Below the pieces are notes generated by a model. It worked only from the letters and a program-made list of their open reading frames with translations. It was not told where the DNA came from and searched no databases. Positions 1 through 42,178 of a stretch of 64,000 nucleotides of DNA are shown in pieces. Where the stretch lies: the NCBI GenBank assembly GCA_900696645.1, contig CAADGV010000033.1, positions 1 to 64,000 on the forward strand, read 5' to 3'. A program made the translations under genes and the position numbers. The stretch's first letter is position 1; each line of letters begins with the position of its first letter. The stretch comes from an uncultured Chlorobiota bacterium. GTDB taxonomy: Bacteria; Bacteroidota; Ignavibacteria; UBA10030; UBA6906.

Positions 1-126
1 AATCAGAAATCAGAAATCAGAAATCAGAAATCAGAAATCAGAAATCAGAAATCAGAAATCAGAAATCAGAAATCAGAAATCAGAAATCAGAAATCAGAAA
101 TCAGAAATCAGAAATCAGAAATCAGA
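1..126. repeat. Perfect heptanucleotide tandem array (AATCAGA x18)
   Basis: Eighteen uninterrupted copies of the 7-base unit AATCAGA fill the window from its first base to the base before the ATG of the aminotransferase gene. The array may continue leftward beyond the window. On the plus strand it has no stop in any frame, because 7 is not a multiple of 3 and every frame cycles through the same heptapeptide IRNQKSE. It is also in frame with the downstream ATG. It could be a hypervariable 5' leader, a spacer within a promoter, or an N-terminal coding repeat if translation starts further upstream. No Shine-Dalgarno-like GGAGG is present in it. Confidence 0.97.
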
Positions 127-1332
127 ATGTCCGCACCTCCTGAACAAATTGTGATCGAACGAATGAAACAGCGACAAACCTTTCTGCCGTTTGCTCTTCC
201 TGATATCGATGGAAGCGAACTACAGCAGGTAAAGGAGGCGTTGGAATCTGGATGGATAACCACGGGCCCGAAGGTAAAGCAGTTTGAATCGGAATTTGCA
301 GCGGCTGTCGGAACGAAACATGCTGTTGCCGTCAACTCCTGTACAGCCGCAATGCATCTTGCCCTCGAAGCAATCGGGCTTCAGAGTGGGGACGAAGTGA
401 TCACGACGCCCTACACGTTTGCAGCAACCGCCGAAGTCATCCGCTATTTTGATGCGAAACCGGTGTTCGTTGATATTGATCCGGCAACATTTAACATCAA
501 CGCTGATCGTATTGAAGAAGCGCTTTCACCATTAACCAAGGCAATCCTTCCGGTTCATATCGCGGGATATCCTGCCGACATGAAACACATCAGGGACATT
601 GCAGCGAGGCGAGGCATAGCAGTGATTGAGGATGCGGCACACGCTGATCCGGGAACGTTCAGAAAATGGAACGCAGGGGGATCGGATTCGGCTGCTGTAT
701 GCTTCAGCTTCTACGCCACAAAGACGATCACTACCGGCGAAGGCGGAATGGTTTGCACGAACGATGACGCGATTGCCGACCGTTGCCGTATTATGGCATT
801 GCACGGCATCAGTCGCGATGCGTGGAAGCGCTACACAGCCGAAGGCAATTGGTTCTACGAAATCACAGCGCCGGGCTACAAGTACAATATGACGGATGTC
901 GCAGCGGCAATGGGGCTGGCCCAACTCCGCAAGTCAGACCGGATGTTGGCGCGCCGAAGAGAAATTGCCGGGGCATACAATGCCGCGTTTGGCGGGAATT
1001 CCAGACTCCAAATTCCAAATTCCCATATGTTGCACGGGTGGCATTTGTACATGTTGAGAATCAATGCAGCGGGAAGTCGGTCGGCTGTCGGCGATGTCAG
1101 GGCAAGATTTGTGGAGGGACTGAAGTCCCGCAACATTGGAACGAGTGTTCATTTTATTCCGTTACACATTCATCCCTACTATCGGGAGATGTACGGCTAC
1201 ACGCCGGAGGATTATCCGGTTGCCTATTCTGAATATCTGCGGGAGATATCGCTGCCGATTTACTCGAAGATGTCCGAAAGGGATGTGCAGGATGTTGTGG
1301 ATGCTGTTCTGGATGTTGCCGACAATCGGTAA
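127..1332 (+). CDS. DegT/DnrJ/EryC1/StrS-family PLP-dependent sugar aminotransferase
   Basis: This 401-residue protein is a full-length nucleotide-sugar aminotransferase of the DegT/DnrJ/EryC1/StrS family, which transfers an amino group to a keto-sugar nucleotide such as UDP-4-keto-6-deoxy-GlcNAc. Visible hallmarks are SGWITTGPKV near residues 41-50, the PLP-contacting EDAAH at 168-172, and FYATKTITTGEGG, whose Lys199 is the expected Schiff-base lysine. The ATG at 127 directly follows the heptamer array and lacks a clear ribosome binding site. Met13 (position 163) begins the conserved part and is an alternative start, and the frame is open back to base 1. A PglC-type transferase and PglF-type dehydratase lie downstream, so it may act like PglE, but the exact sugar is inference. 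Confidence 0.93.
   Translation: MSAPPEQIVIERMKQRQTFLPFALPDIDGSELQQVKEALESGWITTGPKVKQFESEFAAAVGTKHAVAVNSCTAAMHLALEAIGLQSGDEVITTPYTFAATAEVIRYFDAKPVFVDIDPATFNINADRIEEALSPLTKAILPVHIAGYPADMKHIRDIAARRGIAVIEDAAHADPGTFRKWNAGGSDSAAVCFSFYATKTITTGEGGMVCTNDDAIADRCRIMALHGISRDAWKRYTAEGNWFYEITAPGYKYNMTDVAAAMGLAQLRKSDRMLARRREIAGAYNAAFGGNSRLQIPNSHMLHGWHLYMLRINAAGSRSAVGDVRARFVEGLKSRNIGTSVHFIPLHIHPYYREMYGYTPEDYPVAYSEYLREISLPIYSKMSERDVQDVVDAVLDVADNR
997..1024 (+). repeat. Degenerate heptamer repeat inside the aminotransferase gene
   Basis: Four consecutive 7-base units (aattcca, gactcca, aattcca, aattccc) lie inside the coding region. They encode the stretch NSRLQIPNS in the loop before the conserved HxWHLY-like segment. 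The reading frame stays open. It is a different heptamer from the one at the 5' end of the same gene. Confidence 0.7.
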
Positions 1333-32394: not shown

Positions 32395-33318
32395 CTACAA
32401 TTTCAAACCCAATGAAAACGTGTTTCCGCTTCCAAGGTCAGAAGAGAGGGGGGCGAACCCGTAATCAAGACTGAACATTCCGTATTCAACGCCGATTCCG
32501 GTGCTGAAGCCGCGGGCATTCGAGCCAAGTTGATAGCCCGCGCGAGCCGCTACAATTCCGTTGAAGAGCCACTCGCCGCCGATGTTTACGTAGGTCTTCT
32601 TCTCGGGGAAGATGTGCAGCAAATCGGTCGCAAGAGTAAGTTGCGATGTCATGCTTTCCAGTTCGGTAACGTACGCCGGACCAAAACGAAGAAGTGAAGG
32701 GAGGGTGATTTTTTCGTTCCGTAGAGTGTTTGTACTGCCGAGATTTGCCAGTGCCAATCCGACGCTCAGGTTTTCAATCGGGGTTTTGTATTGGACGCCA
32801 ATGTCGAATGCGAAGCCGTTGGCTTCATCTACAAAAATCTTCTCGTACAAAAACTTTGCTGTAATTCCGATTGCCAGTTCGTCTGAGAAGTAGCGTGCAT
32901 ACGACACACCGAGCGAGTAATCTCTCGACGAGAACGTGCCCTGCAGAGTGCCCGGTCGTGTCCGGATTTCGATGTCCGAGACTGTTGCCGTATTAACCGA
33001 TATTCCCAATGCGCTTTCATCGTTCAGATTCACTGTTGCGCCGAGGAACTGCGACCGTACATCCTGAATCCACTCCTTGTGCATAAACAGGATGTGGGCA
33101 TTTGCCTCACCGGCAACCATCAAGCCGGCAGGATTGTAGTGGGTAGCCGCAGCGCCTGAGATTGTAGCGCTCATTGCATCGCCCATCGAGACTCCGCGGC
33201 CCGACACTCCAAGCTTGAGAAATGAAAGACCGGATTTTCCGGCTTGTGCGTGTGCAGCGTGCGGCGCCATCAACAACACGAACACAAGTGAGGTAAGGAA
33301 GGTGTGTGGATATTTCAT
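32395..33318 (-). CDS. PorV/PorQ-like outer membrane beta-barrel protein
   Basis: This 307-residue protein has a signal peptide (cleavage after AHA) and the PorV/PorQ (UPF0164) N-terminal signature: FLKLGVSGRGVSMGDAMSA followed by ATHYNPAGL. Many amphipathic beta strands with aromatic ends follow, finishing in SLGLKL. PorV is the outer-membrane shuttle that brings T9SS cargo to the sortase PorU, and paralogues often accompany cargo genes. It is the last gene of the four-gene unit beginning at 36690 and lies 10 bases after the previous gene. Confidence 0.85.
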   Translation of the reverse strand: MKYPHTFLTSLVFVLLMAPHAAHAQAGKSGLSFLKLGVSGRGVSMGDAMSATISGAAATHYNPAGLMVAGEANAHILFMHKEWIQDVRSQFLGATVNLNDESALGISVNTATVSDIEIRTRPGTLQGTFSSRDYSLGVSYARYFSDELAIGITAKFLYEKIFVDEANGFAFDIGVQYKTPIENLSVGLALANLGSTNTLRNEKITLPSLLRFGPAYVTELESMTSQLTLATDLLHIFPEKKTYVNIGGEWLFNGIVAARAGYQLGSNARGFSTGIGVEYGMFSLDYGFAPLSSDLGSGNTFSLGLKL

Positions 33319-33328
33319 CGTATTCTCG

Positions 33329-34309
33329 TTAGAAGATAACAGAAATCGAAATCATGTGCATGCCCGACGTGGCAAACGGTTCGACGACAAATGCGTAGTT
33401 GATGGCCGGAGTCCAATCATCAAAACTCTTGCGGGCGGAGAATCCGAACGCCGGCCTGACGCCGTTACCCTTCTCCTTCAAGTCAACTCTGTCAATCCCC
33501 GCCCTGACGCTGACTTCGGGAATGATCGGCACTTCAACCCCGACCTTGAGCATAACGGTTGATTGATTGGTGAACTCGACATCAACCGCTACAATGCCAA
33601 GACTGTCCGGCAACTTGTACGCCGCTCCGAATGTGTAGAGACGCGGAAATTTGTCATCGGTTTGCGTTCCGTTCTGGCCATAGAGGGCATTCGTGTTCCA
33701 CGAATATTTCGAGAGGAGATCGCGAATTGTTCCGCCAAGAGTGATGCTGCCGCTCAGCGGAAACAACGCGCCAATATCAATTCCGAATGTGCTGGAGTTG
33801 ACGTCGGTGTAGAGGTGATGGTAAAGATATTTGACGTTGAAGCCGATTGCGAGTCCGTTTTTCAGTTGCGTTCCGAATCCGAGAAAGACCTGATTCTCCG
33901 ATGTTTTCAACGGCCCGGTCGGTTCACCGTCCGAATCACGACCGTCGATGTTGCTGACTCCGGAATTGATGATGCCCGCCGAGATGCCTGCGTTGCCTTT
34001 CAGCGGCTGGGCATAGCTGAGGAAGTTCAGCCGGCGGTCGAACGCGAGAATGCCGAATGATGCGGAGATGTTCCGATACCCGGCAAACGGAAGCGCCGCC
34101 GGATTGTAGTAGCCAACTGCGTCGCCGCCGGTGACTGCAGTGAGGGCATTTCCCATGCCCATTCCCCGTGCACCAAAACCCATACGACTGTAAGTCCCTG
34201 CAGTTCCGCCAATTTGGGCCATAGCAGATGACGCAAATGTGCAACAAAACAAGACGGCTAAAACAGGGCGGGTAAACATCGTTCTTGAATAATGATGGTA
34301 CAGTTTCAT
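33329..34309 (-). CDS. Second PorV/PorQ-like outer membrane beta-barrel protein
   Basis: The 326-residue product is a paralogue of the preceding barrel: GTYSRMGFGARGMGMGNALTA and VGYYNPAALPF are the same family signatures, then barrel strands to the C-terminal phenylalanine (ISISVIF). The ATG at 34309 overlaps the stop of the T9SS cargo gene by four bases, indicating coupled translation; the internal Met at 34279 would also give a signal peptide. Its direct coupling with a sorting-domain protein suggests the barrel and cargo act together. Confidence 0.82.
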   Translation of the reverse strand: MKLYHHYSRTMFTRPVLAVLFCCTFASSAMAQIGGTAGTYSRMGFGARGMGMGNALTAVTGGDAVGYYNPAALPFAGYRNISASFGILAFDRRLNFLSYAQPLKGNAGISAGIINSGVSNIDGRDSDGEPTGPLKTSENQVFLGFGTQLKNGLAIGFNVKYLYHHLYTDVNSSTFGIDIGALFPLSGSITLGGTIRDLLSKYSWNTNALYGQNGTQTDDKFPRLYTFGAAYKLPDSLGIVAVDVEFTNQSTVMLKVGVEVPIIPEVSVRAGIDRVDLKEKGNGVRPAFGFSARKSFDDWTPAINYAFVVEPFATSGMHMISISVIF

Positions 34310-35850
34310 TGCAGCACCATCACCTTTCCCCACAACGGGTCGGCCCCGTCGAGCGTGACGCGGTAGAAATACACTCCGTTGGCAACAATCCGCTTGGTAT
34401 CATCCCGCCCGTCCCAAATTTCGTCATGCTCGCTTGTTCCCGACCGGGAAGCGTCCTTGATGATGGTTCGTACGCGGTTCATTCCGAAATCGAATACCTC
34501 TACAGTAACGTTGGCGGTTCGGCCACCAGTGCTGTAGTGCACGCGGGCAACTTCTTGCCGTGGAGAAAACGGATTCGGGTAGATGTATGTTGTCGATGTG
34601 TTGCCGACGGGACGAAATGCCCGCAGTACATGCCACGACTGCCCGAACGGATTTGTGGCATTATCAGTTGTCTTGACGAGTCCGTCGCCGCTGCCGCCAT
34701 ACACCGTATCGCCCGACACGCCGACGCTGAAGAATGCTCTTGATGTAATTCTGAACCCTGTCGCTTTGTCGATGATCGTGCCGGACTGAGTCCATGAAAG
34801 TCCGCCATCGTCTGTCCGGAAAATGCCCTCATCGGTTGCGACATACGCGATCGAATCCTTGAACGCAATATCGTATGCCTTCACGCCGTGAAGGAAGTTC
34901 TTCCAGATACGGCCGCCGTCATCGGTGTAGCTGACTCCGAATTGCTCGGTTTGACCCTCTGCCTTCCAATTCGTACACCATATTCGTTTTCGTGTTCCGA
35001 GTTGTTGGCCGTTGATAGCAATAACCCAATTGCCGAGTATGGGGGCGGCCTGATTCTGTGCTGAAAACTTCGTCCAGCTTATGCCTGCGTCGGTAGATTT
35101 GTTAATGCCTCCCGCTGTACCGCACCACACGGTTGTGTCATCTTCGAGGTAGACTGAGAAGGCGAGAAAGTTGTTGTTGCGTCGAGGATCAACAACATAT
35201 CCGCCAAGAGGATCGTTCGGCGAAATTGAGTTTCTGAGGTCGGAAGGGAGTACAGTCCGCAGCCACGTTTGCCCCCGATTTGTTGACCTGCGCAATCCGC
35301 TTGACCAACTTGCAATCCAGACGGCATTGTCATCAAACGCAAGGTCGAAAGTCACGTTCTGTTCCGGAACGATAATGGGCAGAAAATTGATTTGATTCGA
35401 TCCGTATGTTACGATACTGTCGTTAGCTGCGTCGAGTGTCTGCGGAAGTTGAGTCCAACTGACACCATTATCAAGTGAATAAGTATATCCGGAACCAGTT
35501 TGAACCCGTGAATTTGCATCGGTAGGTGAAGGCTTTGAGAAGCCGGTTGCCGTCCAGATTGTGCTCCCTTTGACAGCGAGGGAGAAGATACCCGGATTTG
35601 CGAACTGCGGAACGGAGCGGAAACTTTCCCACGACAATCCGCCGGTATTCGTCCGTGCAAGTCCCTTGCTCGTACCGATGAAAACAGCCGGAGTTTCTGT
35701 TGCTATATGAGAAACTGAATTGCTGGGAAGGGCGCTCAAGATTTCTGACTGCCGGGCATCAAGTCCGAATGAGTTCATGTTCATGACTTGTGCCGATGAT
35801 GGCGACACGCCGAGCAGAAGCATCAGACTCGGAAGAAAAAGTAGCTTCAT
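34306..35850 (-). CDS. Secreted beta-propeller-like protein with T9SS C-terminal sorting domain
   Basis: This 514-residue protein begins with a signal peptide and carries repeated BNR/sortilin-type motifs with SWTQ, SWTKF and WTQSG near DGG/DAG/DNG turns (for example STDAGISWTKF and RTDDGGLSWTQSG), consistent with a beta-propeller. The C-terminal 90 residues are a sorting/FlgD-like Ig domain: YIYPNPFSPRQEVARV, then WDGRDDTKRIVANGVYFYRVTL, ending KVMVLQ. It should cross the outer membrane by T9SS. Its enzymatic or adhesive role is unknown. It is followed by two PorV-like genes and preceded by a lipoprotein gene with a 3-base gap. Confidence 0.85.
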   Translation of the reverse strand: MKLLFLPSLMLLLGVSPSSAQVMNMNSFGLDARQSEILSALPSNSVSHIATETPAVFIGTSKGLARTNTGGLSWESFRSVPQFANPGIFSLAVKGSTIWTATGFSKPSPTDANSRVQTGSGYTYSLDNGVSWTQLPQTLDAANDSIVTYGSNQINFLPIIVPEQNVTFDLAFDDNAVWIASWSSGLRRSTNRGQTWLRTVLPSDLRNSISPNDPLGGYVVDPRRNNNFLAFSVYLEDDTTVWCGTAGGINKSTDAGISWTKFSAQNQAAPILGNWVIAINGQQLGTRKRIWCTNWKAEGQTEQFGVSYTDDGGRIWKNFLHGVKAYDIAFKDSIAYVATDEGIFRTDDGGLSWTQSGTIIDKATGFRITSRAFFSVGVSGDTVYGGSGDGLVKTTDNATNPFGQSWHVLRAFRPVGNTSTTYIYPNPFSPRQEVARVHYSTGGRTANVTVEVFDFGMNRVRTIIKDASRSGTSEHDEIWDGRDDTKRIVANGVYFYRVTLDGADPLWGKVMVLQ

Positions 35851-35853
35851 GAT

Positions 35854-36690
35854 TTATCGAATAGTGAAGAATCGTTGGATTGTATTGCTTGTATCGCCGA
35901 ACGAGTCAATCGCCTGAAAGGTAATGAGTCGTGTAGCCCGTGTGTTTGTCGGCGTTACCGGCAGAAGGATGGAGAACTTGCCATCGCCTGCTATGTCATC
36001 GCCGGTTGAAAGGGGAGTAGGAAACCCTTCAAACGTATTGCGTCCGACGCCGCCATCATCTTTCAGGAAGAACTTGGTTGTCAGTGTATCCCGCAGGAAG
36101 AACACTTCTGCAATATCGGCCAACCCGTCGGAGTCGGAGGCTGTTGCGGTGAACTGCACCGTGATGAATCCGGTTGTCGGCAGATCAACTGTATCGGGCG
36201 AGGTTGCGCTTAACAATTGTGGCGCCGAGTTTCTCCGGGTGAGAGCGAGTCGTCGTTCGATGATGTTGCTGACAAGGCCATCCTGTGAAGTTGACCAGAA
36301 CTTGATGCGGTAGCGCCCGGCAAGAGTCCGCGGAATAGCGAACTCGAACCTTCCAGTGAAGACGCCATCGTTGGCTGTCAGATCCGGGGCAGAGCCGTCA
36401 TCCCGCAGTGAGATTCGTGCCACTTCCTCGGTTGTTGTTGGCCGGAGAACCGTTGCAACAACTTCGTGTGCCCCTCCGGTGGCAGCGGCTCTAACACTTA
36501 CGATTGTGCTGATTTGGTAAAGATTGCCGACAGGAACAAGATTATCGAGGTAGATGCTGTCGGGGGTTGCCGATGCAATACTCAGAAACGGAGTCTTCGT
36601 TGGCACATCAATCGTACCGAGGCTGTTCTTCTCGCAAGCCATGAGAAGAATTGCGAGCATCGGTACGAGAAGGTAAGGGATGTATTTCAT
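35854..36690 (-). CDS. Lipoprotein with Ig-like domains, first gene of a T9SS-linked operon
   Basis: The 278-residue product has a lipoprotein signal peptide with Cys19 (LLMAC) and two probable Ig-like or cadherin-like beta domains. The segments SLRDDGSAPDLTANDGVFTG and FLKDDGGVGRNTFEG resemble the DDG loops of choice-of-anchor or calcium-binding Ig folds. I do not recognise a named family. The Met at 36690 is preferred over an upstream in-frame Met at 36816 because a normal lipoprotein signal begins there. It precedes the T9SS cargo gene by three bases. Confidence 0.75.
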   Translation of the reverse strand: MKYIPYLLVPMLAILLMACEKNSLGTIDVPTKTPFLSIASATPDSIYLDNLVPVGNLYQISTIVSVRAAATGGAHEVVATVLRPTTTEEVARISLRDDGSAPDLTANDGVFTGRFEFAIPRTLAGRYRIKFWSTSQDGLVSNIIERRLALTRRNSAPQLLSATSPDTVDLPTTGFITVQFTATASDSDGLADIAEVFFLRDTLTTKFFLKDDGGVGRNTFEGFPTPLSTGDDIAGDGKFSILLPVTPTNTRATRLITFQAIDSFGDTSNTIQRFFTIR

Positions 36691-36905
36691 GAAGGTGTTG
36701 TCTTGATTCTTCGTAACAAAAAAGCCGTGCATCCGTTGTCTGTTCGTCCGAAAAAAGAATTTCGGGCATTGACAATGAAAGCGCGGCCTGTAGTTGCTGT
36801 TTCTACGTGAATGCATGTGTTGGTAATATCCTGCCTGTTAATCCTAAAAGCGTACCAACACTGCGATAGTTTTTTCCGTATTCGTAATTGCTATGAACTG
36901 AAGAA

Positions 36906-36946: not shown

Positions 36947-37924
36947 TCACATGATATAGGAAATAGGTACAAGGGAGATACACCCGAAGAAAATGACTGC
37001 ACACAACCAGCCCAATGCCCTGCGAGTCGGATCGAGCGGCGTATCGTCTTCAATAGGTGGCCTGTGCATTTTCCCTCTCCGAATCATGAAGATGAGAATC
37101 ATCGCCCAGATGAACCACCCAAACCACCCGTACTCAAAATCGATTCCTATCTCTCGCAACATTCCTGAAAGTCCGAGAACCACCAGTATGACAAGAAACG
37201 CCTGCGCAATGGTGTGGTATCGGTTTCCGAACATCGAATAGGAAATATGTCCGCCATCGAGTTGCCCGACGGGAATGAGATTCATCGCCGTTACCAACAT
37301 GCCGAACCATCCGACACAGAGAAAAGGATAGTGGTAGATTTCGTTCATGGGCGGAATAAATGTGCCGGACGGAGCAAACACATCGCGAAACAAGGAAAGA
37401 AACAATGTGTTGCCGAAATGAAGCCCACCATCCGGAATTGAGGGAAGAAGTGCATACTCCGGGTGGATGGAATAAAGATACTCCTTGGATGGCAGCGTCT
37501 GAAATCCAACCGCAAGTATAACAGCAGTTGCAACAAATCCCGCCAGCGGTCCGGCTACGCCAATATCAAACAATACCTTTCTGGAAGGAATGGCAGATCG
37601 CAGCCTTATTACCGCTCCCATCGTTCCAAATGGGTTAAGCAGAAGGAAGGGAGGAAAGGGAATATAGAACGGGAGCGTTGCTTCAACGTTGTGGTACCTT
37701 GCGGCGAAGTAGTGGCCAAACTCGTGCGCGCTGAGCATGATGAGAATCAAAACGGAGTATGTCAACCCGGACGAGAAATTTGTGAGCTCCAGTGAATCTT
37801 TGGCAAGCCAATCGACGCCGGCGAGAGTTGTTGTGAAGAAGGTGAGGCCAAACAGTATGATGTGAACGGCGTAGCGTTTCCATTGACTGGGTTCGGATTG
37901 TGTTTCACGAAAACCTTGATCCAT
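36947..37924 (-). CDS. Site-2-protease-like M50 family membrane metallopeptidase
   Basis: This 325-residue protein has about eight TM helices and the zinc motif HEFGH (His67-His71) in the third hydrophobic segment. NLIPVGQLDGGH supplies the third ligand Asp, and GVAGPLAGF is a typical M50 segment. It probably performs intramembrane proteolysis of a membrane-bound regulator or clears signal peptides. No anti-sigma factor is adjacent. The Met at 37924 is used because the open frame further upstream crosses the putative promoter region. Confidence 0.9.
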   Translation of the reverse strand: MDQGFRETQSEPSQWKRYAVHIILFGLTFFTTTLAGVDWLAKDSLELTNFSSGLTYSVLILIMLSAHEFGHYFAARYHNVEATLPFYIPFPPFLLLNPFGTMGAVIRLRSAIPSRKVLFDIGVAGPLAGFVATAVILAVGFQTLPSKEYLYSIHPEYALLPSIPDGGLHFGNTLFLSLFRDVFAPSGTFIPPMNEIYHYPFLCVGWFGMLVTAMNLIPVGQLDGGHISYSMFGNRYHTIAQAFLVILVVLGLSGMLREIGIDFEYGWFGWFIWAMILIFMIRRGKMHRPPIEDDTPLDPTRRALGWLCAVIFFGCISLVPISYIM

Positions 37925-38013: not shown

Positions 38014-38051
38014 GTAAACAAAAAGGCCACCCGGCAAACGCCGCGTGGCCT
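38014..38051 (-). terminator. Rho-independent terminator of the repeat-peptide gene
   Basis: On the minus strand AGGCCAC and GTGGCCT (outer arms) plus GCCG and CGGC (inner arms) form an 11-bp hairpin with one mismatch and a four-base loop. It is followed by a T-rich run (TTTTTGTTT). It starts 23 bases after the stop of the small gene at 38075. Confidence 0.85.
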
Positions 38052-38074
38052 GCGAATTTCTTGTTCAGACCAAC

Positions 38075-38323
38075 TTACGGTCTGGGTGGATCCGGGATGT
38101 TCATGACGCCGCTCTTTGGACGGGGTGGATCCGGGATGTTCATAACGCCGCTCTTTGGACGGGGTGGATCCGGGATGTTCATAACGCCGCTCTTTGGACG
38201 AGGTGGATCAGGAATGTTCATTACACCGCTCTTGCTCAACGCATTTGAGATAGCGATGTTTGAGAGTGCTACGATTGCAAGCGTCACCAGAAGTGACCGA
38301 AAGCGCTTTGTTGTTTTTGACAT
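38075..38323 (-). CDS. Small exported protein of four identical 13-residue proline-rich repeats
   Basis: This 82-residue protein has a typical signal peptide (basic MSKTTKRFR, hydrophobic SLLVTLAIVALSNIAIS, cleavage expected near NALS). Four consecutive copies of KSGVMNIPDPPRP follow and the protein ends after the fourth. The four copies are 39 bases each (38195-38233, 38156-38194, 38117-38155, 38078-38116). The middle two are identical. The outer two differ from them at nine bases in total, all synonymous, which indicates selection on the peptide and fixes the coding strand. AGGGGAG lies 6 bases before the ATG. It has its own promoter (38575-38603) and terminator. I recognise no family; the mature part would be about 52 residues, net positive to neutral, and rich in Pro. 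Confidence 0.88.
   Translation of the reverse strand: MSKTTKRFRSLLVTLAIVALSNIAISNALSKSGVMNIPDPPRPKSGVMNIPDPPRPKSGVMNIPDPPRPKSGVMNIPDPPRP
38078..38233 (-). repeat. Four 39-base coding repeats
   Basis: Direct tandem repeats of 39 bases within the small exported protein gene. Copies two and three are identical. Copy one differs from copy two at five third-codon positions. Copy four differs from copy three at four bases (Val, Arg and Pro codons). None of these changes alters the peptide. Confidence 0.95.
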
Positions 38324-38448
38324 GGACAGCTCCCCTTTGTTTGGTTGTATGTTGGTTAGGTTATCGGTTTCCTTTTGGAAATCTTGATAGGTTGTTTCAG
38401 ATATTTTCTATGCAAGGATTGGAAAATGAACGGCTGGCAAGACAGGCA

Positions 38449-38574: not shown

Positions 38575-38603
38575 AATATATTGAAGATACATCGTACTGT
38601 CAA
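38575..38603 (-). promoter_or_regulatory. Promoter of the repeat-peptide gene
   Basis: On the minus strand, a perfect TTGACA (38603-38598), a 17-base spacer and TATATT (38580-38575). The transcript would start near 38568. It points away from the promoter at 38695-38723, with 91 bases between the two -35 elements. Confidence 0.7.
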
Positions 38604-38694: not shown

Positions 38695-38723
38695 TTGACT
38701 TGCAGTACGACGTTCGATATATT
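38695..38723 (+). promoter_or_regulatory. Promoter of the eight-TM protein gene
   Basis: TTGACT (38695-38700), a 17-base spacer and TATATT (38718-38723), followed by AGGGGA at 38741 and the ATG at 38755. The very short leader of about 25 bases contrasts with the long leader of the divergent gene. Confidence 0.7.
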
Positions 38724-38754
38724 TTTACCGTTACTCCCATAGGGGATCTTGCCA

Positions 38755-39891
38755 ATGAGTTTTGCGAAAAAGATACTGGTACTATGGCTTGCAGTGATTG
38801 CGGTCGTGGGAATATCATATTCCTTGCCCCATTTTGAAGTAACAGCAATCCAGTTTCTAGGGAACTCGCTTCAATTCTTACTCCTCATTCTCTCCATTGT
38901 GTTGGTTCGCTATGAAACAGTGCGCAAGACGAAGTTCATCTTCGTCAACTTCGCTGCACTGTTTGCAATGGCCATTTTCTTTCACGTGTACAACTTCGTT
39001 GGAACTGCATTCTTTGTCGGCGATCCCAAGGCACGATTGTATTATTTCCAGTATGTATCCCATGCGCTGTACTTCTTCCTGCTTGCGTTCGCGATTTGTT
39101 ATGTGACAATCGACTTACTCTTCCGGGATTTCAAGATCATCCAGAAGTACCTTCTCACCATCGCAATCGTTGGTGGATTCTTCGCATACTACTACTATCC
39201 GCAACTTGCGGATTCGCAATATCTCTACAAGACACACGAGATTGCCGAGTGGAAAGAACTCGACAAGGCTTCGGCCCAGTTTGCCCGGGAGTTCAAGACA
39301 ATCCCTGCTCACACCGAACTTGCTTCATACATGAAAAATGTTGAAGCGCCGTCCTTGAATGCATTGCCTGAAGCCGATCGGGTTCAGAGAGTCGAGGAAC
39401 TGTACCCGTACCTCTCCGGATCCAACTACAAGAACTTGTTGCTGAAGCCGATCTATCTCAGTTCCATTTACATGTGCGTCCTGACGGTTGGATTGATTCT
39501 TCTCTTCTTCGGATACCAGTACAAGAAAGATCCGCCGCAAGGGGCATACATTGAAAAGATGATGTTCTTCTTCCTGATGTTCTGCACGCTGGAAGTATTT
39601 CACGCGTGGACATTCATCAAGACTATTGAGTGGCAGAACGCTTTGCAGATTTTTGAAATAGGGCAGTTCTTGTCTGCTGCTGTTCTTGGTATTATTGCTG
39701 TATTCTTCGCCCTTCGCCTGCGCTTCATTCGCTCGGCGTACGGCGAGTTCTACGAACATGAAATTGTCGAAAGTCCGTCAACCATCACGCGCTGGAGAGA
39801 TTCACTGGACAACTTGGTCATTGCCCATTTCTTCAAGCGCAACACGCTCGTCGGACGAATGCTGGTCGATCCCCAATTGAAAACCAAGTAA
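38755..39891 (+). CDS. Eight-TM membrane protein of unknown function
   Basis: The 378-residue protein has about five TM helices in residues 5-158, a soluble loop of about 70 residues (DSQYLYKTHEIAEWKELDKA to VEELYPYLSGS), then three more TM helices and a charged cytoplasmic tail. I do not recognise a family. The ATG at 38755 has an AGGGGA ribosome binding site 8 bases upstream and a consensus-like promoter. The AAA+ regulator follows after 84 bases with no terminator between, so the two may form a sensor and regulator pair. The arrangement of a 5-plus-3 helix bundle with a central loop is compatible with a membrane sensor; that is inference. Confidence 0.85.
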   Translation: MSFAKKILVLWLAVIAVVGISYSLPHFEVTAIQFLGNSLQFLLLILSIVLVRYETVRKTKFIFVNFAALFAMAIFFHVYNFVGTAFFVGDPKARLYYFQYVSHALYFFLLAFAICYVTIDLLFRDFKIIQKYLLTIAIVGGFFAYYYYPQLADSQYLYKTHEIAEWKELDKASAQFAREFKTIPAHTELASYMKNVEAPSLNALPEADRVQRVEELYPYLSGSNYKNLLLKPIYLSSIYMCVLTVGLILLFFGYQYKKDPPQGAYIEKMMFFFLMFCTLEVFHAWTFIKTIEWQNALQIFEIGQFLSAAVLGIIAVFFALRLRFIRSAYGEFYEHEIVESPSTITRWRDSLDNLVIAHFFKRNTLVGRMLVDPQLKTK

Positions 39892-39975: not shown

Positions 39976-41010
39976 ATGGAATCAAAAACAGTACTGGGAG
40001 ACAAGAAGGCAGGGGGTGCCTTCGAATATCCTATCGTCGGCAAGAGCAAATCCACCGAACAGTTGATTCGCTCGATTCAGAAACTTGCCAAGAGCCGGCG
40101 CGACGTCGTTATTGTCGGCGAAGCGGGAGTTGGCAAGGGAGCTGTGGCGAAGAATATCTATCACATGGGCAAGGCCGAGTTGAAGAACGGCAGTACCGAA
40201 CAACCCTTCATGTCGATCAACCTTTCGGTGGTAGACGACAGAGAGTTGGAGGCTATGTTGTTCGGATTCGACCGTGGAGTCGAGGGATTGCCGTACACAT
40301 CGAAGCGCGGGTTGTTCGAACAGGCGAATGGTGGTACCGTTCTGATTGAGGAGATTGAAGAAGCAAGCTTCCGCAATCAGATGAAGATCCTCAACTTCAT
40401 CAACGAACGCAAAACACGCCGGATTGGCGGTGAGGCGAAGGAGAACGTCGATATTCGCCTGATCATCACCATGAAAGATGATCCTGCACAGCTTGTTGAG
40501 AAGCGGAAACTGCTGGAAGACTTGTACTCCCGCGTTCTGGAATTCGAGAAGGTCGAAATCCAGCCGCTGCGTCAGCGCGCAGAAGATATCCCGCTTCTCG
40601 TAAAACACTTCACAAGTGAAATCTGCCGTGAACTCGGGCTTGGTGAACTGGTTATCGACATCAATGCGATTGATGTGCTGGTTCGCCAGCCGTGGAAAGA
40701 AAACATCCGTGAGCTCAAAGCTGTTGTCGACAAGTCCGTACTCTTCTCCAATGACGGACGATTCTCCTTGCCGCCTGAACTGGTTGATGAAAAGACTGAA
40801 GTGGTGAAGATGATCAACAACATTATGGCGGGTCAGGAATTCGTTCTCGATAAGTCACTCGATGTTATTGAGAAGGGAATAATCGAGAGGTCGCTTGACA
40901 GATTTGGCTTCAACCAATCGAAGGCTGCGCAGTTTCTCGGGATGACGGAACAAACATTCCGTTACAAATTGAAACGGCTCGGTATTGCAAGCGCACGGTC
41001 GAGAGGGTAG
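39976..41010 (+). CDS. Sigma-54-type AAA+ regulator lacking receiver domain and GAFTGA loop
   Basis: This 344-residue protein has the AAA+ domain and Fis-type HTH of NtrC-like activators. Walker A is GEAGVGKG (48-55), the Walker B region reads GGTVLIEEIEE (Glu where Asp is usual), and LRQRAEDIPLLVKHF is the family sensor region. The C-terminal helix-turn-helix is SKAAQFLGMTEQTFRYKLKRLGI. Where activators have GAFTGA, this one has GVEGLP, so contact with sigma-54 is doubtful. No N-terminal receiver or GAF domain is present; only about 20 residues precede the AAA+ domain. It may be a regulator that acts with sigma70 or is controlled by the upstream membrane protein. Confidence 0.88.
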   Translation: MESKTVLGDKKAGGAFEYPIVGKSKSTEQLIRSIQKLAKSRRDVVIVGEAGVGKGAVAKNIYHMGKAELKNGSTEQPFMSINLSVVDDRELEAMLFGFDRGVEGLPYTSKRGLFEQANGGTVLIEEIEEASFRNQMKILNFINERKTRRIGGEAKENVDIRLIITMKDDPAQLVEKRKLLEDLYSRVLEFEKVEIQPLRQRAEDIPLLVKHFTSEICRELGLGELVIDINAIDVLVRQPWKENIRELKAVVDKSVLFSNDGRFSLPPELVDEKTEVVKMINNIMAGQEFVLDKSLDVIEKGIIERSLDRFGFNQSKAAQFLGMTEQTFRYKLKRLGIASARSRG

Positions 41011-41074: not shown

Positions 41075-42178
41075 CTAACGGAATTGCCTATTTTTCCAGG
41101 ACACTCTTCTGTTGAGCAAGACTACGGGTGGAAAAAGTACAACATAGATGATGTAGTACAATTCGAAGGGGACAAAATACTGGATCAATCTCATCTGCTT
41201 GAAAGTGGTCAAGGCGGGCCGGACGAGCAAGAAATCTGAAATTACTTTGACAGCGAAGGCCGCCAGAACCGGGATGAAATTTCCGGCTAAGAGATTGATG
41301 ACCAGAAGCATTTTGAACAGAAACCCTGTGGCAAACAACGCGATGCTCTTCAAGTCCATATCCGCGCCACCGATGAACCAACGTTTTTTCTGACGATACA
41401 GGCTTGCCCAATCCTCGCACGGCAGGCTTTGTACCAGCGTTGATGCATCAACGGGGAATTTCGCTTTGTATGTGCCTGTTGACGTAACCGCATGGAAAAG
41501 GGCATAGTCTTCAGTTATGCTGAATGGAATGTTCCGGTAGCCGCCGACAGCTTCGTATGCTTTCCTTCTCACGGAAAGGTTATTGCCGACAGCCGTAACC
41601 GGAAAATGCAGCCGGATTGTTGCTGCTGCAATCGAGAACAGAACAAACCAATCCAATGCCTGAATTGCCTCAAACAGTTTTCCGGCCCGAAGGGAAGTGA
41701 AACCAGCAACTACACCAACGAGCCGCTCGTCATAGTACTTCACGGTTTCCTCAACCCACCGTTCCGGTACGATGCAGTCAGCGTCCGTGAAGAAGATGAA
41801 CTCGCCCGTGGTTCTGTCGATGCCCTGCGCAACAGCGTTGGTTTTTCCTCTGAGATGTCCATCCGGGTCAGGAGTTGATGTGTGAGATAGTATGAAAGGG
41901 AACCTGCTGGCAAACTCCTCGATAATCTCGGCCGTTTTGTCTGTCGAGCGGTCGTTGACAACGAGTACTTCAAGAAGTTCTTTCGGATATGATAGCCGGG
42001 AAATGGATTCGAGACAGGGGCGAATATTCTCATCTTCGTTCCGTGCTGCAATGATGATGGAGACTGTCGGTCTGAACGTATTATCATGGGAGTATCGGGC
42101 CCGATGGGCACCGACTGCGAATATACAAATTTGAATCGCGTAGAGAATTCCGAAAAGAACAAGCAGTTCTACAAGCAT
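41075..42178 (-). CDS. Membrane-associated family 2 glycosyltransferase
   Basis: This 367-residue GT-A enzyme has an N-terminal TM helix, a GT2 domain (VSIIIAARNEDENI, VVNDRSTDKT, the DxD as FTDADC, catalytic-base ITEDY and QKKRW matching QxxRW) and about four C-terminal TM helices. QxxRW suggests a processive or chitin synthase/IcaA-like enzyme or a ceramide-glucosyltransferase-like one. The sugar and acceptor are unknown. The minus-strand promoter candidate at 42221-42249 would give a leader of about 36 bases. Confidence 0.9.
   Translation of the reverse strand: MLVELLVLFGILYAIQICIFAVGAHRARYSHDNTFRPTVSIIIAARNEDENIRPCLESISRLSYPKELLEVLVVNDRSTDKTAEIIEEFASRFPFILSHTSTPDPDGHLRGKTNAVAQGIDRTTGEFIFFTDADCIVPERWVEETVKYYDERLVGVVAGFTSLRAGKLFEAIQALDWFVLFSIAAATIRLHFPVTAVGNNLSVRRKAYEAVGGYRNIPFSITEDYALFHAVTSTGTYKAKFPVDASTLVQSLPCEDWASLYRQKKRWFIGGADMDLKSIALFATGFLFKMLLVINLLAGNFIPVLAAFAVKVISDFLLVRPALTTFKQMRLIQYFVPFELYYIIYVVLFPPVVLLNRRVSWKNRQFR

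Follow-up and report, generated by a model that had tools for sequence, protein, structure and literature searches.

A conserved locus of multi-copy short-peptide precursors, a predicted seven-helix membrane protein and an AAA+/HTH_8 regulator in Ignavibacteria

Results

A Four-Unit Precursor Gene and Its Expression Signals

The DNA under study, hereafter the window, is a stretch of 64,000 nucleotides of contig CAADGV010000033.1 from an uncultured Chlorobiota bacterium (assembly GCA_900696645.1). Its minus strand carries at 38075-38323 a precursor gene, REP, coding an 82-residue protein that consists of a leader and four copies of K-SGVMNIPDPPRP. The putative export leader MSKTTKRFRSLLVTLAIVALSNIAISNALS (residues 1-30; 38234-38323, minus strand) shows a pattern conserved in homologues and is followed on the same strand by unit 1 (KSGVMNIPDPPRP; 38195-38233), unit 2 (38156-38194), unit 3 (38117-38155) and unit 4 (38078-38116), which has the stop codon at its end; TRF reported the DNA as a 39-bp tandem array at 38084-38233. 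Nine bases vary among the four 12-residue units, all of them silent and none causing a replacement, whereas in the plus-strand open reading frames over the gene (38045-38248 and 38061-38387) residues change from repeat to repeat. The initial annotation, which had described a signal peptide with four identical KSGVMNIPDPPRP units and silent differences in the minus frame only, was thus borne out by the open reading frame and by comparison of the copies. Its consensus promoter, good ribosome binding site and terminator were likewise recovered, as a sigma70-type promoter matching 11 of 12 consensus positions (TTGACA-17-TATATT; 38575-38603, minus strand), an RBS-like AAAGGGGAG immediately 5' of the ATG, and an intrinsic terminator hairpin followed by a T-run (38024-38051, minus strand; -27.9 kcal/mol, z -4.5). 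The output of a simple terminator scan did not include this hairpin (38051-38024, minus strand). Matches of REP to Pfam Drf_FH1 and NCBIfam BimA were rejected, being due to proline composition and far under the cut-off. At the left edge of the window (1-127), the heptamer AATCAGA is repeated 18 times in a perfect array.

The Precursor Family in Related Genomes

A protein search of 60 related genomes, followed by a scan of named genomes with the divergent membrane protein (MEM, described below) and of further stretches, gave about 40 related precursors, nearly all in MAGs labelled Ignavibacteria/Bacteroidota, so that the absence of any homologue, which would have told against the gene, can be set aside. 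All share one architecture, with a conserved export leader (K/R-rich, hydrophobic, xNxAIS) and then one to nine units of 11-14 residues; the extremes are one copy (L107 and L109) and nine copies (L074). Units are near-identical inside one gene and different between species. A total of 41 distinct units were observed, for example SGVAHMPDSPRP, SGIPILPDSPKP, STVPLLPDSPRP, SGIALNPSGTPRP, DGGVEIPIPPRP, TAIGQSTGDVRP, ASGTTSNPLPPPP and SGGPIAPSDIPRP; 39 of them end in P and 32 in PRP or PKP, with a net charge between -2 and +2 (mean +0.24). Copies within 36 REP genes were found to differ by 341 silent and 10 replacement changes, whereas neutrality would predict about 97 silent ones; copies with more than three mismatches, such as one degenerate copy in L036, were omitted from this count. 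REP is not a chance reading frame, because about 40 relatives share its leader and architecture and its copies display this excess of silent changes. The repeat unit is the item under purifying selection.

The linkers between units vary. K is the commonest, and RT, IVSERA, DAEKT, AMH, TLQ, TRVRNLTA and TLVDS also occur, sometimes in combination (RT and IVSERA in L032, KT and DAEKT in L042, AMH and TLQ in L040, several in L074). An AxA-like signal-peptidase site stands directly before the first unit in L027, L032, L034, L035, L039 and L042, and in most genes of the family the last unit runs up to the stop codon. Since units are kept, linkers are free, and the AxA site and the stop codon mark the ends, the product appears to be the 11-14-residue peptide without linker. 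No single cleavage rule is visible from the variable linkers, and processing is inferred. The suggestion that peptides are released at Lys therefore stands only in part: Lys is the commonest linker, but unrelated residues take its place in several species. The view that the repeat unit itself is the functional item gained more support, given that units stay identical while linkers vary, that copy number ranges from one to nine, and that a phage-like contig has the bare unit once (see below). The same holds for the proposal of an undescribed system; no described family fits.

Several loci depart from the common form. One of the four units in L036 is degenerate (ANIHLLPSSSQP) and the remaining three are identical. 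L061 and L070 each have two tandem REP paralogues, and those of L061 bear different units (SGPTAPEPPRP and SGPTAPPPPIPAID). L060 (JAHFNN010000078.1), a contig assigned to a Candidatus Nomurabacteria MAG, has a locus of REP, MEM and regulator of the Ignavibacteria type and is probably mis-binned.

The Divergent Membrane Protein

Divergently from REP lies the MEM gene (38755-39891, plus strand; ATG at 38755, alternative TTG at 38749), behind a sigma70-type promoter (TTGACT-17-TATATT; 38695-38723, plus strand). MEM is predicted to have an N-terminal helix and seven transmembrane helices, and is the proposed receptor. Neither a Pfam match of note nor a PDB sequence match was found for it, and hence no sequence homology to eukaryotic GPCRs; the Pfam 7TM modules of 7TMR-DISM or LytS type were absent from 17 MEM proteins. 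AlphaFold2 models of two lead sequences, 33% identical to each other (pLDDT 85 and 82), both contained the N-terminal helix, a seven-helix bundle and a large outer insert. VIA-align matched the models to GPCRs with Z 13-15 over 200-240 residues at an rmsd of about 4, and the best 50 matches listed were all of GPCR-type 7TM. A Z of about 14 can be reached by chance for helical bundles, and Foldseek gave no match at E<=0.001 (E>0.1); the likeness is therefore one of arrangement and no proof of descent, and MEM is predicted to have a GPCR-like 7TM arrangement.

With the topology assigned from the model and from positive-inside charges, mean pairwise identity reached 86% in cytosolic loop 3 and 58% in the C-tail, against 20-36% in the outer loops. 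Such a pattern would be expected of a receptor whose ligand varies on the outside and whose partner within the cell stays the same. Of the 33 intergenic regions between REP and MEM, 25 contained the promoter -35 motif CTTGACA on either strand and 12 contained a GTGA-N6-TCAC dyad, both of which came out as enriched in an operator search. In many species a TTTGCGAA-like box is found about 12 bases before the MEM -35 hexamer (about 38690 in the window). Both the box and the dyad are possible operator sites.

The Regulator, the Conserved Locus and Its Neighbours

Adjoining MEM is the gene of the proposed output (39976-41010, plus strand), an AAA+/HTH_8 regulator of NtrC/PspF type without receiver domain. 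It matches sigma54 activators (bEBPs) over the AAA+ domain, with Walker A, and over HTH_8; the GAFTGA loop that contacts sigma54 is replaced in all 39 aligned sequences, in which Walker B is also changed, the arginine finger is degenerate and HTH_8 is highly conserved. RpoN is encoded in the host genome. Promoters of the sigma54 -24/-12 type 5' of REP were considered and rejected, with only 2 of 36 regions under a shuffle p of 0.02 and no consistent site. TyrR is a DNA-binding regulator that acts at ordinary promoters, and the present protein is probably of the same kind, with no target site established.

In essentially every complete locus, REP and the pair of MEM and regulator are divergently oriented, and these three genes constitute the conserved core. 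Among the 60 genomes, every genome with a REP match (E<1e-3) also encodes MEM and no MEM-less genome has REP at this threshold; the regulator occurs in 31 of 31 MEM genomes. In a sample of 395 genomes from the phylum, MEM was present in 9, and these all belong to the same order as the window; a few more genomes of the class have it, and none was found on plasmids. MEM paralogues keep the same company: 9 of 11 paralogue stretches have an adjacent regulator paralogue, the remaining two being at contig edges, and four paralogues face another small secreted protein, divergently encoded and with a Pro-rich end. Because of this, the trio of secreted Pro-rich peptide, MEM and regulator appears to extend beyond REP.

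Two syntenic neighbours flank this core. A gene for an M50 protease of site-2-protease type (36947-37924, minus strand) lies directly 3' of REP in nearly all loci, except that it is not adjacent in L028 and L031. Its link to the system is weak: M50 occurs in 46 of 60 genomes, and because many of them lack MEM we regard it as a neighbour and not as a dedicated part. As a dedicated partner it was rejected, since it occurs without the MEM/REP system and shows no association with unit divergence. A GT2-type glycosyltransferase gene (41075-42178, minus strand) is near most loci and missing beside some, and it is probably outside the system. Further 3' of M50 (32395-36816), genes for PorV-like outer-membrane proteins keep their order across many relatives, and one of these proteins has a T9SS-sorting-like end.

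Divergence of Units and of the Membrane Protein

Partial Mantel tests revealed that unit distance is associated with MEM distance when the regulator is controlled for (0.24, p = 0.005). By part of MEM, the association was found for the extracellular (0.26, p = 0.011) and transmembrane (0.23, p = 0.011) parts and not for the cytosolic parts (0.06, p = 0.27). With M50, the glycosyltransferase or the REP leader as further controls, MEM alone stayed associated (p = 0.008-0.024); unit divergence was not tracked by the regulator, M50 (-0.10, p = 0.82), the glycosyltransferase or REP's own leader. The effect is moderate and rests on about 30-36 loci.

A Precursor on a Phage-Like Contig

A 6.6-kb contig of the same assembly (C35) encodes an M15 endolysin, an XhlA-like protein and weaker matches to virion proteins. 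It also carries a precursor, MKRLLVLLAIVFAVNFLIDCALA-SGVMNIPDPPRP-GAVK, flanked by a gene for a YdjM-like membrane protein and by an unknown gene. The unit of this precursor is identical to the host unit at 12 of 12 residues with 6-9 base differences, all silent, and its leader is related (62% identity over residues 8-45). In GC content the contig is close to the host (0.499 vs 0.507), and its tetranucleotide profile lies beyond the range of window pieces, as for phage or other foreign DNA. Its phage neighbour proteins had no relative in 100 related genomes, and searches of IMG/VR and INPHARED with the neighbour proteins, the contig's own unit and a related precursor gave no relative of the contig and no further phage-borne copies. 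The pooled-unit search for phage copies is insensitive to single copies, having missed the known unit of this contig. Most simply, the contig copy would feed or mimic the host signal; this is a single case, its binning is unchecked, and use by a phage is inferred.

Discussion

In this study, we performed an analysis of a divergent three-gene locus, and we propose that REP gives rise, as a precursor, to a secreted peptide pheromone that is specific to the species. On this proposal, the inferred order of events would be as follows. First, the Sec-type leader would direct the export of REP, and cleavage would release several copies of the 12-residue SGVMNIPDPPRP. Second, the divergently encoded MEM would sense the peptide at the outer face of the inner membrane and relay its state, through the conserved cytosolic loop (KKDPPQGAYIEK) and the tail, to the adjoining AAA+/HTH_8 regulator. 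Third, the regulator may then change transcription at ordinary sigma70 promoters, its regulon being inferred as well. A phage of the host with one peptide copy and its own related leader would feed or mimic this signal. A secreted multi-copy species-specific peptide, with MEM as the likely receptor and the regulator as output, is in our judgement the best account and a likely one. Export, cleavage, MEM as receptor and its coupling to the regulator remain inferences in the absence of expression, peptide or binding data; the family, its selected unit, the conserved and co-occurring locus, the association of unit with MEM and the identical phage-borne unit were observed.

The alternative that survives best, itself unlikely, is a bacteriocin-like peptide toxin, with MEM as its immunity protein or target and a regulator that controls production only. 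Co-evolution of toxin and immunity could likewise account for species-specific units and for an outer face of MEM that changes fast, and the precursors of insect proline-rich antimicrobials can be multi-copy too. However, the units are short, near neutral and not amphipathic, without the strongly cationic charge of proline-rich antimicrobial peptides; the cytosolic face is the most conserved part of MEM, the regulator is always paired with it, in paralogues as well, and a single copy of a toxin made by its own host would be of little use to a phage. Among the functions first suggested for the unit, signalling fits best and an antimicrobial role is weakened by the mean net charge of +0.24 over 41 units. 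More doubtful still is an uncut REP acting as a multivalent secreted ligand or a surface or adhesive protein, with repeats for avidity. Although adhesive and surface proteins commonly contain proline-rich tandem repeats, single-copy REP genes exist, the linkers vary in length as well as sequence, the protein stops at its last unit without anchor or sorting domain, and the units diverge together with MEM.

Very improbable, in our view, is an envelope-stress circuit in which the M50 intramembrane protease has REP as its substrate or reporter: the protease gene does sit next to REP in nearly all loci, and M50 proteases in other bacteria act on signal-peptide-like helices, but the gene is found in many genomes without MEM and REP and is not adjacent in two loci, a terminator separates it from REP in the window, and unit divergence does not follow it. 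A housekeeping role of M50 in clearing the REP leader is possible. No better placed is a RiPP precursor whose repeated cores are modified by a neighbouring enzyme, for which the leader with repeated variable cores and the nearby glycosyltransferase might speak, since no RiPP-type modifying enzyme was recognised among the conserved core genes, the glycosyltransferase is missing beside some loci and does not track the units, and the leader looks like a plain secretion signal.

Read as a signalling system, the REP locus works like tandem RRNPPA propeptides or yeast alpha-factor but belongs to neither group. RRNPPA systems with tandemly duplicated propeptides (Phr, NprX, AimP) likewise export several copies of a short peptide, have the receptor/regulator adjoining the propeptide, as proposed here, and include phage-borne members (PMC11343458, PMC9765709). 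The definition of a short exported propeptide with at least one signal copy is met by REP, with its leader and one to nine units. In contrast, RRNPPA systems import the peptide and have cytoplasmic TPR proteins from Bacillota as receptors (PMC11343458, PMC9765709), whereas the REP system has a proposed 7TM receptor, an AAA+/HTH_8 regulator, Ignavibacteria hosts and units of 11-14 residues; Pfam/NCBIfam searches identified no TPR-containing cytoplasmic receptor beside REP, where the neighbours are M50, an unmatched membrane protein and the AAA+/HTH_8 protein. Fungal alpha-factor and other KEX2-processed repeat proteins also combine a secretory leader with tandem near-identical peptides and spacers (PMC6339444, PMC7329392), and alpha-factor shares species specificity and a 7TM pheromone receptor, matched here by a proposed one. 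They differ in that the REP system has no sequence relation to them, lacks a G protein and has a DNA-binding regulator as its proposed output, and dibasic KR/RR KEX2 sites are not found between REP repeats, the linkers being mostly single K, with RT, AMH, TLQ or TLVDS elsewhere.

Other bacterial systems are more distant. Agr-type systems and ComQXPA also join a peptide signal to a divergent or adjacent membrane sensor and a transcriptional output, but REP codes one unmodified-looking linear peptide in several copies, without AgrB or ComQ, and no histidine kinase with response regulator was found among the window neighbours (Pfam/NCBIfam) or in the conserved core. Bacterial 7TM sensors such as 7TMR-DISM and BtsS/LytS are seven-helix signalling proteins too (PMC6107284, PMC10653868); unlike them, MEM lacks a Pfam match, has no output domain fused to it and is partnered by a separate AAA+/HTH_8 protein. 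The agr genes of Clostridium phage phiCDHM1 (PMC7790227) provide a parallel for a phage with peptide-signal genes of its host's kind, whereas C35 is a short contig with a bare signal peptide gene only, identical in residues to the host unit. A search of the open-licence literature found no such system for Ignavibacteria or their phylum.

Whether the locus represents a third architecture of bacterial peptide communication, in which a GPCR-like 7TM receptor senses multi-copy species-specific linear peptides from outside and passes the signal directly to a DNA-binding AAA+/HTH_8 regulator, and in which a phage has captured the exact host signal peptide, is in our estimate evenly balanced. If this is right, Ignavibacteria, which are widespread and mostly uncultured, would possess a peptide language whose components are unrelated to those of known bacterial systems, in striking parallel to yeast alpha-factor and its 7TM receptor. 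About 40 natural peptide-partner pairs would then be at hand for specificity studies, with the exact peptides for synthesis predicted, and the phage-like contig would provide an example of a phage that uses the peptide signal of its own host.
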